NCBI GenBank assembly: GCA_019750915.1
Contig: JAIENY010000005.1
Location: 78,952 to 142,951, forward strand
From: Xanthobacteraceae bacterium
GTDB lineage: Bacteria; Pseudomonadota; Alphaproteobacteria; Rhizobiales; Xanthobacteraceae
Reading direction: 5' to 3'
Length of the DNA stretch: 64,000 nucleotides
A program made the position numbers and the translations under genes. Below are positions 264 to 7,896 of this stretch, one piece after another (the stretch's first letter is position 1; the number at the start of each line of letters is the position of its first letter). A model generated the notes under the pieces. The model was not told where the DNA came from. It saw nothing but the letters and a program-made list of their open reading frames with translations, and searched no databases.

Positions 264-1136
264 CTACACCTTCCTTGTTACGGCGCGGCCCAGCAGACCA
301 TTCGGACAAATCGCAAGCGCTGCGATGACCACGGCAAAGGCAACGATTTGGGTGTAACCGGATCCTGCGAATGACGTGACCATGGCCTCGATCAGGCCGT
401 AGAGGATACCGGCAAGCATCACGCCCCAAGCGGATCCGATGCCGCCCAGGATCGCCACCGCAAATCCCTTGATGCCGAACAGCGTTCCCATGTCCGAGTG
501 CACGCTCACCAGTGGCGCGATCATGATTCCAGCCAAGCCAGCCAGCGCGGCCGACAGCGCAAAGGACATTGCGATAGCACTGCGCACGTTGATTCCCATC
601 AGCTGCGCGGCCCGCTTGTTCTGCACAACGGCAAGCAGCGCTTTTCCTCTTGCCGTCTTTCGAAATGCGTACTGCAAAGCAAATGCGATGCCGAGGCCGA
701 CCAGCGGGATTATCACTTGCAGTGGCAAAATCCCGGTGCCGAAGATCGCGACCGGCTTCTGCGCAAGAGTGGACGGAAAACCGCGTGGTTCTTTTCCGAA
801 GGTAAAGAGAACAAGATTGTCGACAACGATTCCGCCGGCGACCGTGGCCATGAGCCAGGCGCTTGATCCACGCTCGGCGAACGGCCGCACCAAAATTCGT
901 TCGACCACCAGACCAAACAGCGCGCATAGCGAAAGCGCTAATACAACAGCCAGCGGCATCGGCAGGCCCAGCCGGATCGCCAGGACGTAACCGAACACCG
1001 CTCCCAGCATGACCGAGGAGCCCTGCGCAAAATTGACCGTGTTCGAAATGGCGTAAGTGACGTGATAGCCGAGCGCAATCATGCCGTACATACTGCCGAC
1101 GGCCACGCCACTGACGATCGCGGAAAACAACAGCAT
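264..1136 (-). CDS. Branched-chain amino acid-type ABC transporter permease LivH
   Basis: 290 aa; GMIALGYHVTYAISNTVNFAQGSSVMLGA and GGIGSAWGVMLAGILYGLIEAM motifs of LivH permeases. Confidence 0.9.
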   Translation of the reverse strand: MLLFSAIVSGVAVGSMYGMIALGYHVTYAISNTVNFAQGSSVMLGAVFGYVLAIRLGLPMPLAVVLALSLCALFGLVVERILVRPFAERGSSAWLMATVAGGIVVDNLVLFTFGKEPRGFPSTLAQKPVAIFGTGILPLQVIIPLVGLGIAFALQYAFRKTARGKALLAVVQNKRAAQLMGINVRSAIAMSFALSAALAGLAGIMIAPLVSVHSDMGTLFGIKGFAVAILGGIGSAWGVMLAGILYGLIEAMVTSFAGSGYTQIVAFAVVIAALAICPNGLLGRAVTRKV

Positions 1137-1188: not shown

Positions 1189-2364
1189 TTAGTTGGTGAC
1201 GGGCACGATCGCTCCATCGACGAAATGCGTGAACAGATAATCACTTGACGTCAGCGCGTCGTGATTTTGTTCGCTGAAAGGCTTGTCGTAGGTTTTGATC
1301 AGACCATCGTAATGATCGATGGCATAAAATCCGTCGCGGATCTTCGTGCCGTCGGTCGAGCCGGCTTTTGCGACCGCCATCGCCGTGAGATGCATTGCGT
1401 CATAAGCGTTGGCGATGCCGACCGCCGGTGTCGCGTCAGCGAACGTTTTCACTTCCGGGTATTTTTTCTTGAGCGCCATGAAGACGGCTTCCGCTTTCGG
1501 CGAGGTTTTTCCGGCGAAACTGAAGGTCTGGATGAAGTGGACTTTTTCCGCAGCCGGACCGGCAAGCTCGGTGAAGCGGCCGCCTGCGGGGCCCCAATGC
1601 GAGATCACCGGCACGCTCCAGCCCATGCGCTCAAGCGATTTGACGACCTGCGAAGACGGCGCAACGTTGGCCACCATGAACAGCGTGTCGGCACCGGCGT
1701 CTTTCAGTCGCGTGAGTTGCGGCACCACATCCACATCGGCGTCCTGGAATTTTTCGATCCCGGCAAAAGGCAGGCCTTTGGCGGCGAGCGCTGCCTTCAG
1801 GCCACCCTCGTTCGATTCACCCCATGGATTGTTGATGAGGATCATTCCGGGTTTCTTGGCGCCGTATGTCTTGACGGCGTAGTTGACCAGCGCCTCATCC
1901 ACCAGCTTATCAACCGCAGAAACGCGGAACACATAGTTGTCTGCCGCCCCGTTGCTGGTGATCGCCGTCCCTGCCGCCCATACACCTATGAACGGCACCT
2001 TGCTCTGGTTGGCGAAAGGAACGATCGCCATCGAAACCGGCGTATCAAGGCCACCAAACATGACGGCGACTTTCTCGCGCTGAACCAGTTCGCGCGCGGC
2101 AACCACGCCCTTTGCCGGGTTGCTTTCGTCGTCGCGGACGACCAGCTCGAGTTTTTTGCCGAGCACACCGCCCGCGGCGTTGATCTCATCCATCGCCAGC
2201 GACAGGCCGCGGACGATCGCCTCGCCCGATTTCGCCGATTGGCCTGACATCGCAGCGACCAGACCGAACTTGATGGTGTCGTCCGCCAGCGCGGGCGACG
2301 CGAGCAGAAGGGTGGCGCCGACCAATAGCGCCCGACGCGACAAGGAATGCGAGATTGCGAGCAT
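1189..2364 (-). CDS. ABC transporter substrate-binding protein (Peripla_BP_6 / LivK type)
   Basis: MLAISHSLSRRALLVGATLLLASPALADDTIKFGLVAAMSGQSAKSGEAIVRGLSLAMDEINAAGGVLGKKLELVVRDDESNPAKG; signal peptide; GGAGG ribosome site just upstream of ATG 2364 (track ORF begins at 2406). Confidence 0.9.
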   Translation of the reverse strand: MLAISHSLSRRALLVGATLLLASPALADDTIKFGLVAAMSGQSAKSGEAIVRGLSLAMDEINAAGGVLGKKLELVVRDDESNPAKGVVAARELVQREKVAVMFGGLDTPVSMAIVPFANQSKVPFIGVWAAGTAITSNGAADNYVFRVSAVDKLVDEALVNYAVKTYGAKKPGMILINNPWGESNEGGLKAALAAKGLPFAGIEKFQDADVDVVPQLTRLKDAGADTLFMVANVAPSSQVVKSLERMGWSVPVISHWGPAGGRFTELAGPAAEKVHFIQTFSFAGKTSPKAEAVFMALKKKYPEVKTFADATPAVGIANAYDAMHLTAMAVAKAGSTDGTKIRDGFYAIDHYDGLIKTYDKPFSEQNHDALTSSDYLFTHFVDGAIVPVTN

Positions 2365-2394
2365 GTGTTGATCCTCCGTTGACACGAGACTATT

Positions 2395-2410
2395 GGCAAG
2401 CTCCATGCCA
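2395..2410 (-). promoter_or_regulatory. Putative sigma54 (-24/-12) promoter, proximal copy
   Basis: Minus strand TGGCATGGAGCTTGCC; matches TGGCAYG-N4-TTGC with correct GG-to-GC spacing; lies ~30 bp upstream of ATG 2364. Confidence 0.65.
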
Positions 2411-2417
2411 GACTATT

Positions 2418-2433
2418 GGCAAGCCCCATGCCA
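2418..2433 (-). promoter_or_regulatory. Putative sigma54 (-24/-12) promoter, distal duplicated copy
   Basis: Minus strand TGGCATGGGGCTTGCC, same spacing, exactly 23 bp upstream of the proximal copy. Confidence 0.55.
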
Positions 2434-2523
2434 GTGCACGACAAATAAAATAACGTGTTTTCAGTGCCTTAGATCATTGATCGTCGGCCGCCTGAAATTT
2501 CGCACACGAAAACTGTCCAAATT

Positions 2524-2541
2524 GTATGCAATTGTGCATAC
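2524..2541. promoter_or_regulatory. Inverted repeat, candidate GntR/FCD operator or enhancer-binding site
   Basis: GTATGCA-attg-TGCATAC, perfect 7-bp arms, in the divergent region between SBP (2364, -) and SnoaL-like gene (2610, +); GntR gene is adjacent. Confidence 0.5.
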
Positions 2542-2609
2542 CATTTTTGCTTTCCTTGCTTCGTGTTGCCCCGCATCTTTCCGGTCCTCGCGCCCAGCAG
2601 GAGACCGCC

Positions 2610-3032
2610 ATGCCGACCACCGCCCCCGCCCTGCCGCCCCACGCCTCCGATGACGTTGAAATTGTCCGCGCCTTCCTCGAAGCCTCGATGAAGCCGGACG
2701 TCGAACGCGCGGCGAGCTATGTCGCCAGCAATTTCAAGCTGACGTTCACCGGCGGACGCACCTACGATCATCCCGGCGGAAGCATCGGTTTCAATGCGAA
2801 GCGCTATCGCTGGGTGAAGAAATCAATGGATCGTTTTGACGTCGTGCCCGGCGTCGATGAAACCATCGTCTACAGCATCGGCACGCTCTACGGCGAATGG
2901 CCCGACGGCACAGCATTCGAGGATAATCGCTATATCGACCGTTTCGTCGTTCGCGACGGCAGAATTACGCATATGGACGTGTGGAACGACAGCGCAGAAC
3001 GGATATTGGTCAGAAACGGTATCGAGGCCTGA
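2610..3032 (+). CDS. SnoaL-like / NTF2-fold family protein
   Basis: MPTTAPALPPHASDDVEIVRAFLEASMKPDVERAASYVASNFKLTFTGGRTYDHPGGS...RYIDRFVVRDGRITHMDVWND; SnoaL-like pattern. Confidence 0.65.
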   Translation: MPTTAPALPPHASDDVEIVRAFLEASMKPDVERAASYVASNFKLTFTGGRTYDHPGGSIGFNAKRYRWVKKSMDRFDVVPGVDETIVYSIGTLYGEWPDGTAFEDNRYIDRFVVRDGRITHMDVWNDSAERILVRNGIEA

Positions 3033-3036
3033 CCCG

Positions 3037-3786
3037 TCAGGAACGGTTGCTGTTGGTTGTGCCGGTCCTGCTCCGTGCAGACGGCGCCTCGCCGGCGTAA
3101 CTGTCGAGGACGTCGGCAAGTTCGCGATTTTTGCGGGTCAAAGGCGTAATGAGTGCACGGTCAGCCACCGCCTTGAGATGACCTTCCATCACACCCATTG
3201 CAGCTCCCGCATCACCCGCCACGAGCGCATCGATGATTTCGCGATGCTCGCTGACCGCGCATTCGGATGAATGCGGCCGGCTGTAAAGTGCCAGGATCAG
3301 GCCGAAGCGGGACGAGACCTCACTCACATAGCGAGTAACCGTGGCGCTTCCCGTCATATTCGCAAGCACGATGTGGAATTGGGTCGCCAGACGGATCGAT
3401 AGCGGCTCGTTGGCGCCGCGCGACCGCTCTTCATCTTCGACATGCGCACGCAATTGCTCGATCTGCGCACTGCTCAGGCGGCCGGCGAGCCGCGACATCA
3501 CCAGCCGCTCAAGACCCAGACGAATGTCGAAAATATCCCGGGCCTCCTCCCAAGAGGGAGTCGCAACCACAGCACCGCGGTTACGCCGCAGCTCTACCAG
3601 TCCCTCCGCCGCCAGTTGACCGAGGGCGTGGCGCACAATGGTGCGACTCGCACCGAAGCGCTCGCCAATGGAGTCTTCCGGGAGCTTTGCCCCAGGTGAC
3701 AGGGCCTGCTCCATGATGGCATGGCGCAGTGCCTTGTAGATCTGCCCGGTGCGATCTGTCGTTGGCTTCGTGGTTTTCGCCATCAC
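3037..3786 (-). CDS. GntR family transcriptional regulator with FCD domain
   Basis: N-terminal wHTH GQIYKALRHAIMEQALSPGAKLPEDSIGERFGASRTIVRHALGQLAAEGLVELRRNRGAVV plus FCD-like C-terminal domain. Confidence 0.9.
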   Translation of the reverse strand: MMAKTTKPTTDRTGQIYKALRHAIMEQALSPGAKLPEDSIGERFGASRTIVRHALGQLAAEGLVELRRNRGAVVATPSWEEARDIFDIRLGLERLVMSRLAGRLSSAQIEQLRAHVEDEERSRGANEPLSIRLATQFHIVLANMTGSATVTRYVSEVSSRFGLILALYSRPHSSECAVSEHREIIDALVAGDAGAAMGVMEGHLKAVADRALITPLTRKNRELADVLDSYAGEAPSARSRTGTTNSNRS

Positions 3787-3917: not shown

Positions 3918-5423
3918 TCAGCGGTAGCACGCTTCCAGCGCCGCCGCGGCTCGATAAAGCGTCATCTCATCGAGATGTCGCGCAATCAGCATCGCACCGA
4001 TCGGACGGCCATCCGACGTTTTACCGACGGGAACGGATATCGCCGGATGCCCAGTGATACATGTCGGAGCCGTGTTGCCGACCATCTCGAATGCACGGCC
4101 GATGATCTCTTCCCGCGATGCGTCGATATCCGGCAACCGCGTGGTGGCCATAGGCGTGGTCGGCATCAACAGAAGATCGACCTCGCCCAACGCCCTGTTG
4201 TAGTCAGCGGTCAATAGTCGGTTGAGGTTTTGCGCCTTGCCGTAATACCGACCCCGATTGCGCGATGACATATAATGTCCGGTCAAGATTCCGAGCTTCA
4301 ATGTCTCGGAAAGCTCGTCGGCGCGATCGCGCCAGCGCGCATGAGCATCCATCAGGCTCTCGAGAAATACACCTTTCATGTTCGTTCCATACGCGTTGCC
4401 GCGCATCATCAGATCAGTTGCGCCTTCGAGAAAGATCGGCGTCCAGATCGCGGCGCCAGCCGTATGGAGCGGCACCGAGATATCACGAACATGAGCACCG
4501 GTATGCGCGAGGCGTTCACCCGCCTCACGCACCCGCGAATCGACTTCGGCTTCAGCGCCGGCCGAACCGAAGCCTTCGGGCACGATACCGATACGCAAAC
4601 CGGCCACGCCCTTTGCAAGAGCCTGCGTATAGGGCTGTGCCGGCGCACCGGACTGGCGCGGGTCAAGACCGTCCGGGCCGGCCATGACCTCGAGCATAAG
4701 AGCGTTGTCGGCGACCGTCCGGGTAATCGGCCCGGCATGATCCACGGTCAATTCGACCGCAAATACTCCGGTGTAGGGCACAAGACCGTGCGTCGGTTTC
4801 AATCCGACAGCACCGCAATATGACGCCGGAATCCGGATCGAACCGCCCTGATCGCCACCGGTAGCCATGTCGACGATATTGGCCATCACCAGCGCGGTCG
4901 AACCTGAGGATGATCCGCCAGCGTTGTGGCCAGGCACCAACGGATTTTCAACGACGCCATTGGCCGATGTATGGCTTCCGCCCGATGCGCAGTAATACTC
5001 GCAAACCGATTTCCCGAGTATCTCCGCTCCTTCGTCGAGCATCCGAGTGACGATGGTGGCATCCATTTCCGGCACATAGCCTTCTAGAATGGACGCGCCG
5101 TTCATCATCGGAACGCCGGCAACGCAAACGTTGTCCTTGATCGCGACCCTCTTGCCACTGAGTTTGCCGCGACGGGCGCCTTCAATGCGCGTCTTAACGG
5201 CCCAGGCGCCATAAGGATTATCCTCCGGCTGCGGGCGAACACCAGGCGTCCGGGGGTATTTGACCTCGGGCAGCGGAGCGACCATGTCCTCGACGAGATC
5301 ATAGGCGTCGAGTTGCCCCTGCATCAGACCGTGAAACGAGACCGCGTCGGCATCGCTCAGATGGAGGCCGAGTTCGAGCGCAGCCTGCTGCAATTCAACA
5401 ACATTTGGACGACGGACGGGCAT
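3918..5423 (-). CDS. Amidase (amidase signature family)
   Basis: GKRVAIKDNVCVAGVPMMNG (Lys), AGGSSSGSTALV and GGDQGGSIRIPASYCGAVGLKPTHGLVPYTG (Ser-cisSer-Lys). Start chosen at MPVRRPNVVELQQ. Confidence 0.92.
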   Translation of the reverse strand: MPVRRPNVVELQQAALELGLHLSDADAVSFHGLMQGQLDAYDLVEDMVAPLPEVKYPRTPGVRPQPEDNPYGAWAVKTRIEGARRGKLSGKRVAIKDNVCVAGVPMMNGASILEGYVPEMDATIVTRMLDEGAEILGKSVCEYYCASGGSHTSANGVVENPLVPGHNAGGSSSGSTALVMANIVDMATGGDQGGSIRIPASYCGAVGLKPTHGLVPYTGVFAVELTVDHAGPITRTVADNALMLEVMAGPDGLDPRQSGAPAQPYTQALAKGVAGLRIGIVPEGFGSAGAEAEVDSRVREAGERLAHTGAHVRDISVPLHTAGAAIWTPIFLEGATDLMMRGNAYGTNMKGVFLESLMDAHARWRDRADELSETLKLGILTGHYMSSRNRGRYYGKAQNLNRLLTADYNRALGEVDLLLMPTTPMATTRLPDIDASREEIIGRAFEMVGNTAPTCITGHPAISVPVGKTSDGRPIGAMLIARHLDEMTLYRAAAALEACYR

Positions 5424-5427
5424 CGAG

Positions 5428-7896
5428 TTACATCGCTTTCCAATCGCCGGCCGCTTCGAATGCGGCAGCGGCCTGATAAATAGTCGATTCGGCCCAGTAT
5501 TTCCCGACCAGCATGCAACCCACAGGCAGACCATCGGACATACCGCAGGGAATTGACATGGCCGGGTGCCCCGTCACATTAAAGGGCGCGGTGTTCTCCA
5601 GCATTTCGAACGCTCTCTTCAGAACCATCGCCAGCGGCGCATCAGGCGACGGCATCGGCTGCGCTTTCATCGCTGTTGTCGGCATCATGAGCAGATCATA
5701 CGCGCCGAGCATCTGGTCATAAGCCGCACGCAGCTTCCTCGCGAGATTTTGCGCCTTGGAATAGTAGTGGCCTCGATAGTGGCGTTGAAAGTATTCGCCG
5801 GTGAACATCGTGATTTTGAGGCTTTCGGACAGCTCATCACTCCGACTTGGCCAACTCGCGTGGTGATCGAGCAGCGAAGTGGTATAGAGCCCTTTCCAGC
5901 CCGTGCCCATTCCGTTGCCCTTCATCATCTGGTTGGTCGACCCCTCCGCAGCAATGGCAAGCCAGATCGGCATGGCCTTGTTGTGCATCGGGATGGAGAC
6001 TTCATCGACAGTCGCGCCCAATTTGCGGAACAGATCGCCCGCACGACGCACGCACGCGTCCACATCCGGCTCCGATTCAGGGCGACCGAACCCTTCCCGC
6101 ACAATCGCAATGCGCAAACCGCGCACGCCGCGCGCAAGCGCCGAGGTGTAACGATCGGTCTGAGGGGCATATTGCCGCGGATCGAGTGCGTCCTCACCCG
6201 CCAGCACCTCAAGGAAAAGAGCATTATCGGCCACGGTCATCGTCATTGGACCGGTATGATCAATCGTGTTTTCAATCGGCATCACGCCCGTATAAGGCAC
6301 AAGACCGTGTGTCGCCTTCATGCCATAGCAACCGCTGAATGATGCGGGCATCCGGATCGAGCCACCCTGATCGCCGCCGATGGCCATATCCACTTCGCCA
6401 GCAACCAGCACCGCAGCGGATCCCGACGACGATCCTCCAGCTGAATATCCATGCCGGTGAGGATTATGAACCAGCCCCGTTGAATTGGTGTGGCTCCCAC
6501 CCGACAGGCAGAAGTGTTCGCAATGGGTTTTACCGACAATGGTGCCGCCGGCATCGAGAATGCGGGTCACGATAGTCGCATCGACGTCAGGCGTGTAGCC
6601 CTTCAGAGTCGATGAGCCGTTCATCATCGGCACACCAGCCACGCAGACATTATCCTTGATCGCGATCGTCTTGCCAGCGAGCGGCCCGCGCGGCGCGCCC
6701 CTGATCTCTGACTTCACATACCAGGCGTTGAACGGATTTTCCTCCGCTGATGGACGATAACCCGCAGTGCGCGGATAACTGACGCTCGGCACGTTGTCCG
6801 GCATCGCGTCCAGCTCGTCGTAGCGCCGCATCGATCCTTCCATCTGAACCAGAAATTCCGCGAGACGCTCGTCCGACAGGCTCATCCCAAAATCCTGGGC
6901 GATCGCCTTGAGCTGGCGAAGTGTGGGACGTTTAACGGACATACGGACAGGTCTTTCCGAATCGACTGGAGGGACGAGAGTTGAGCGCGAATGAATTGTC
7001 GCAGGCCGGACTCCGGACGGCGCCATTTTCTCCTGCGCAACCGGTCTTGCTACGGGCGCCGATGGTTGGGTGGCAGAATTCGGTGGCGGCTGTATCGATC
7101 CGCTGCCGGCGACACTCGCGCCTTTGCCATTCCCCTGATGGGGACCGGTCTTGTTCGGACCCGCGGTTCCGTCACTCTTGAATCCAGTGAAATCATCGAT
7201 CAGCGCCGAGTTGTCCAGCGAAGGATCGTCAATCACGCCCGCTATCTGGCCCTTTTTCATGATCAGAACACGATCCGCGAGGCCAGTGATGAATTCCAGG
7301 TTCTGTTCGATCAGAAGGACGGAAAGTCCGCGCTCGCGACTCAGCTCGCGCAGCTTCTCCTCGATCGTATCCACGATCGACGGCTGAATGCCTTCAGTCG
7401 GCTCATCGAGCAACACGATCTGTGGATCGCTGATCAGACAGCGAGCAAGCGCCAGTAGCTGCTGCTCACCACCGGAGAGAGCACCGCCTTGCCGATCCAG
7501 AAGGCGTTCCAACTGAGGAAATTCACGCAGGATCGCAGCCATCGCATCATTCTCGTCGTCCGAGCCGTGCGAAGCGATACCCATGCGCAGATTGTCGCGC
7601 ACGGAAAGTGTGGGAAATATTCCTCGTCCTTGCGGCACATACCCGATGCCGAGGCGAGATCGGCCATGGCTGGACTCCCGAGTGACATCGAGACCGTCGA
7701 ATGTAATCGATCCGCCGGTTACAGGAATGAGTCCCATCACTGTCTTGAGCAAAGTCGATTTGCCCATTCCGTTATGGCCGAGAATTCCGACAATCTCGCC
7801 CTCATGAATTGCGAAATCGAGGCCATGCAGGATTGGCACCCGACCGTAACCGGATCGCAGTCCCTTAACCTCCAGAATAACCGGCGCGTCGCTCAA
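5428..7896 (-). CDS. LivF-type ABC ATPase fused in frame through a Pro-rich linker to an amidase signature domain (822 aa)
   Basis: aa 1-~240: GHNGMGKST Walker A, LSGGEQQLLALAR signature, VLLDEPTEG Walker B; aa ~241-318: Pro/Ser/Gly/Thr-rich linker; aa 319-822: amidase (AIKDNVCVAGVPMMNG, AGGSSSGSAAV, GGDQGGSIRMPASFSG). No stop codon between. An internal ATG at 6942 (MSVKRPTLRQ) could also start a free amidase. Confidence 0.85.
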   Translation of the reverse strand: MSDAPVILEVKGLRSGYGRVPILHGLDFAIHEGEIVGILGHNGMGKSTLLKTVMGLIPVTGGSITFDGLDVTRESSHGRSRLGIGYVPQGRGIFPTLSVRDNLRMGIASHGSDDENDAMAAILREFPQLERLLDRQGGALSGGEQQLLALARCLISDPQIVLLDEPTEGIQPSIVDTIEEKLRELSRERGLSVLLIEQNLEFITGLADRVLIMKKGQIAGVIDDPSLDNSALIDDFTGFKSDGTAGPNKTGPHQGNGKGASVAGSGSIQPPPNSATQPSAPVARPVAQEKMAPSGVRPATIHSRSTLVPPVDSERPVRMSVKRPTLRQLKAIAQDFGMSLSDERLAEFLVQMEGSMRRYDELDAMPDNVPSVSYPRTAGYRPSAEENPFNAWYVKSEIRGAPRGPLAGKTIAIKDNVCVAGVPMMNGSSTLKGYTPDVDATIVTRILDAGGTIVGKTHCEHFCLSGGSHTNSTGLVHNPHRHGYSAGGSSSGSAAVLVAGEVDMAIGGDQGGSIRMPASFSGCYGMKATHGLVPYTGVMPIENTIDHTGPMTMTVADNALFLEVLAGEDALDPRQYAPQTDRYTSALARGVRGLRIAIVREGFGRPESEPDVDACVRRAGDLFRKLGATVDEVSIPMHNKAMPIWLAIAAEGSTNQMMKGNGMGTGWKGLYTTSLLDHHASWPSRSDELSESLKITMFTGEYFQRHYRGHYYSKAQNLARKLRAAYDQMLGAYDLLMMPTTAMKAQPMPSPDAPLAMVLKRAFEMLENTAPFNVTGHPAMSIPCGMSDGLPVGCMLVGKYWAESTIYQAAAAFEAAGDWKAM

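Follow-up and report, generated by a model that had tools for sequence, protein, structure and literature searches.

Tandem duplication of a predicted sigma-54 promoter upstream of a branched-chain-type transporter operon in a member of the Xanthobacteraceae

In Azoarcus sp. BH72, nifB and narK have each been reported to be preceded by predicted tandem RpoN sites, and P. putida CA-3 is cited as another such case (PMC3916325). As in the operon analyzed here, two -24/-12 elements precede one gene at nifB and at narK. However, the Azoarcus sites are predictions, and the passage that describes them gives neither their spacing nor a sign of copying, unlike the 23-bp duplication considered below. 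A literature search for tandem sigma-54 promoters returned nothing beyond the Azoarcus report. A further comparison is offered by the single sigma-54 promoters of orthologous substrate-binding protein (SBP) operons, which have in common with the focal operon the gene, the consensus, the upstream palindromes and the distance to the ATG (46-69 nt); these operons carry one element each, whereas the focal operon carries two.

The initial annotation of this locus described the duplication as unusual, which holds for its rarity but not in the sense of uniqueness: in addition to the literature reports, a strict tandem -24/-12 pattern with a spacer of 2-32 bp was found in 81 stretches among 84,980 genomes, many of them inside coding repeats. 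Among the intergenic cases, pairs 18 bp apart lie before rpoN in two Halomonadaceae genomes (L094 and L170), a third (L130) has a pair with the same spacing before a gene that is cut, and a Poribacteria MAG (L128) carries a pair before an hsp20-type gene with the 23-bp spacing of the focal pair. All of these resemble the focal pair in that both elements lie on one strand and precede a gene, at a spacing of 18 or 23 bp; however, their copies are less alike than the focal ones (0.65-0.78 over the unit). Although rare, tandem sigma-54 elements do recur, and the focal pair is a further case. The Halomonadaceae pair is older, since it is common to several genomes, and it suggests conserved sigma-54 self-regulation. 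A pair in Bradyrhizobium DOA9 (L111; 24 bp, 96%) was rejected as a parallel owing to a transposase-like ORF downstream and the lack of a clear gene start close by. In L131 and L105, strict -24/-12 elements form runs of three or four that span no more than about 150 bp on single MAG contigs, with no clear gene start nearby.

In this study, the duplicated element was analyzed within a 64-kb stretch of DNA, referred to as the window, and was compared with the upstream regions of orthologous operons. The features are collected in Table 1.

Table 1. Features of the operon, its promoter region and its neighbours (window coordinates)
Feature	Coordinates	Strand	Basis
Permease, LivH type, BPD_transp_2; second operon gene	264..1136	-	Domain search; conserved order
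Substrate-binding protein, branched-chain-type ABC transporter, Peripla_BP_6; first operon gene	1189..2364	-	PF13458, E=2.3e-59
Ribosome-binding site GGAGG	2373..2377 (2377-2373)	-	Sequence
Predicted start from proximal copy, ~2384	2383..2385	-	Predicted from the sigma-54 spacing rule
Duplicated unit, 2 x 23 bp, 22/23 identical	2387..2432	-	Repeat comparison and TRF
Proximal -24/-12 element TGGCATGGAGCTTGCC	2395..2410 (2410-2395)	-	Perfect consensus match; conserved in orthologues
Predicted start from distal copy, ~2407, within proximal -24 box	2406..2408	-	Predicted
Distal -24/-12 element TGGCATGGGGCTTGCC	2418..2433 (2433-2418)	-	Perfect consensus match
Palindrome pair, GntR/FCD operator-like	2521..2544	-	Motif search in upstream regions
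SnoaL-like protein gene, divergent, conserved neighbour	2610..3032	+	SnoaL_2, weak (23 bits versus cut-off of 27)
GntR-family regulator, FCD domain, conserved neighbour	3037..3786	-	Domain search; gene order

The repeat and its two -24/-12 elements

The repeat consists of two 23-nt units arranged head to tail (2387-2409 and 2410-2432) that differ at one position, and the corresponding TRF array (2387-2434, 96% match) is the top-scoring tandem repeat in the window. The initial annotation had placed it at 2388-2433; the tandem 23-mers with one mismatch were confirmed, but the first base is 2387. Its spacing of about two helical turns likewise stands as an approximation, 23 bp being 2.2 turns at 10.5 bp and not exactly 2. 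The two successive minus-strand -24/-12 elements that it proposed both match TGGCAYG-N4-TTGC perfectly, in the form TGGCATG-N4-TTGC and with the GG and GC boxes 10 bp apart, and the single difference between the copies falls in the unconstrained N4 spacer. These two elements are the only perfect matches in the window. Base counts give an expectation of about 0.06 perfect matches per 64 kb, and a pair 23 bp apart is therefore not attributable to chance. With at most one mismatch, five matches were found in the window against 3.7 expected, the other three being background-like, and perfect matches across the genome numbered 11 compared with three for a reversed control pattern.

An artefact of draft assembly might be suspected, as the genome is fragmented (3.35 Mb in 87 contigs, 83% complete) and the repeat has been observed a single time. 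However, the 46-bp array fits inside one short read, its copies differ by one base and both flanks align to relatives, making such an origin highly improbable.

Orthologous operons and the origin of the duplication

Searches for the SBP covered 100 relatives and, in a second step, 399 genomes of the family, and upstream DNA was compared for 32 orthologues (69-87% protein identity) from 14 other genera, or 15 with that of the focal genome. A -24/-12 element is located 46-69 nt 5' of the start codon in all 32, with 0-2 mismatches and with the GG and GC boxes kept, and it has been retained despite divergence of the surrounding sequence. Paralogues at 68% identity or less are without the element, except for a one-mismatch site in L040. 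The focal genome contains one rpoN gene. It also encodes six enhancer-binding proteins (EBPs), each with a full AAA+ domain; NCBIfam names three of them as NtrC, NtrX and FlbD, and the remaining three are one PAS-type EBP and two response regulators. No sigma-70-like promoter was found in the promoter region. The sigma-54 reading first put forward for this locus is supported by the element in every orthologue compared and by the rpoN and EBP genes, and the operon at ATG 2364 is, as judged from sequence, very likely driven by a sigma-54 promoter.

Each unit also holds a 5-bp inverted repeat (TGGCA...TGCCA), and the duplication could accordingly be read as paired regulator sites of the form TGGCA-N7-TGCCA instead of promoters. 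What the orthologues conserve, however, are the letters of the -24/-12 consensus. The base after TTGC is G, C or T, so that the right arm TGCCA lacks conservation, and the operator was rejected. Paired operators thus appear to be a very remote explanation of the repeat.

Alignment of the upstream region in relatives, suggested at the outset as a check, revealed a single copy in every orthologue, including the closest relative (G396; 87% identity), and two copies in the focal genome only. This relative has a single TGGCACGGTGCTTGCC, at 47 nt from the ATG and 101 bp from its palindrome; the corresponding distances in the focal genome are 46 nt for the proximal element, counted from its first base to the ATG, and 99 bp for the distal element, measured to the palindrome upstream. 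When the two regions are aligned, a gap of 21 columns stands opposite one repeat unit, with flanks that align on both sides. One copy in all orthologues, together with this gap, indicates that an ancestral sigma-54 promoter was micro-duplicated on the focal lineage, and a recent duplication specific to this lineage is very likely. Because the duplication inserted one unit, the proximal copy retains the old, short leader, and the distal copy retains the ancestral spacing from the regulatory sites upstream.

Upstream palindromes and the neighbouring regulator

The gene order GntR-SnoaL-SBP-LivH-LivM/G/F is common to relatives; in the focal genome, a fused LivM/G/F-type protein and then an amidohydrolase follow LivH to the left of the window. 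On the other side of the conserved neighbours, an 822-aa open frame (5428-7896, minus strand) combines a LivF-type ABC ATPase (residues 23-167) with an amidase (396-806), an uncommon transporter-enzyme fusion, and is adjoined by a separate amidase gene (3918-5423). The start of the SnoaL-like gene (2605-2649) contains an imperfect 21-bp tandem repeat (79%).

The palindrome ATNGTATACNAT was found in 32 of 33 upstream regions compared with 1.5 in shuffles. In the focal genome it is represented by ATTGCATACAAT at 2532-2521, with one mismatch, and by ATGGTATGCACA at 2544-2533, with three. The strict 12-mer ATYGTATACRAT, whose placement upstream of the SBP gene was derived from coordinates, occurs once each in three whole genomes searched and twice in a fourth; the focal genome and its closest relative are without the exact 12-mer, and both carry one-mismatch versions. 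We take the T-GTATAC-A palindrome class to be of the GntR/FCD operator type. A GntR orthologue is present in 15 of 18 genomes and adjoins the SBP gene in most of them. In G084 both the regulator and the palindrome are absent; G040 and G123 are without a close GntR and still have weaker palindrome sites, a combination found in one genus. A dedicated regulator is likely because the palindrome is nearly unique to this locus, and the GntR protein is its neighbour. Most likely, the palindromes, about 100-135 bp upstream, would be bound by this neighbouring GntR-type regulator, adding substrate-specific control. Their use as a genome-wide EBP site is disfavoured by the near-uniqueness to the locus in the genomes searched. 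Furthermore, NtrC-type enhancer sites were not enriched upstream (6 of 33 sequences versus 8.8 in shuffles), and an unbiased dyad search of the upstream regions returned no conserved motif beyond the GTATAC palindrome.

Across genera, the palindrome lies at clustered distances from the -24 box, namely 99-102, 111-114, 124-127 and 134-136 bp, although the intervening spacers are only 21-27% identical. Equally periodic placements were obtained in none of 5,000 uniform random sets, a result that is suggestive only, as the genomes are related and adjacent sites are not independent. The clustered distances across genera, the randomized spacer and the lack of a visible separate enhancer site would be consistent with a palindrome-binding regulator, probably of the GntR/FCD type, that acts helix-phased with the sigma-54 promoter, a possibility that we consider unlikely. 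If it were true, the 23-bp duplication would have shifted one promoter copy by about two grid steps.

Predicted use of the two copies

Transcription from sigma-54 promoters starts 12 nt past the -12 C of the GC box. For the proximal copy this places the predicted start near 2384, about 20 nt ahead of ATG 2364, in agreement with the initial proposal and with the GGAGG site inside the leader. An in-frame ATG at 2406 (ORF 1189-2406) adjoins the start predicted for the distal copy, which could, speculatively, yield a leaderless mRNA and a protein or signal peptide longer by 14 residues.

The model that we favour, with some reserve, is that the sigma-54 promoter of the operon was duplicated on the focal lineage and that both copies bind polymerase as alternative start positions. 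Both would still bind sigma-54 RNA polymerase and, since the footprint of the sigma-54 holoenzyme exceeds 23 bp and the footprints therefore overlap, the copies would be alternative positions that polymerase could not occupy at the same time, initiating near 2384 and near 2407, some 23 nt apart. Activation would need an AAA+ enhancer-binding protein. The net effect would probably be a modest shift in promoter occupancy and output rather than a new type of control.

Alternatively, one copy works, likeliest the proximal one with its ancestral leader, and replication slippage produced the other as a neutral copy that will drift or vanish. The restriction of two copies to the focal genome is consistent with this, as are the recent-looking event implied by copies that are 96% identical and the near-perfect 20-25 bp pairs that also occur in several unrelated genomes, as slippage predicts. 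Moreover, the duplication is known from one draft genome (83% complete) and is thus indistinguishable from a neutral, recent polymorphism. However, all consensus positions are intact in both copies, the sole difference having fallen in the N4 spacer, and the palindrome distances of both are inside the range of the orthologues. A single working copy is accordingly considered possible but somewhat doubtful, and use of both copies remains the reading to which we lean, on the strength of their intact consensus and placement.

The locus offers a clean natural example of an entire sigma-54 promoter duplicated in situ, for which the many relatives with one copy serve as controls, and it could be used to test directly how output depends on enhancer-promoter distance and on overlap between polymerase sites. 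For the family, the conserved arrangement of sigma-54 promoter and GntR regulator leads to the prediction of an uptake system that depends on RpoN and probably serves a nitrogen-containing compound.
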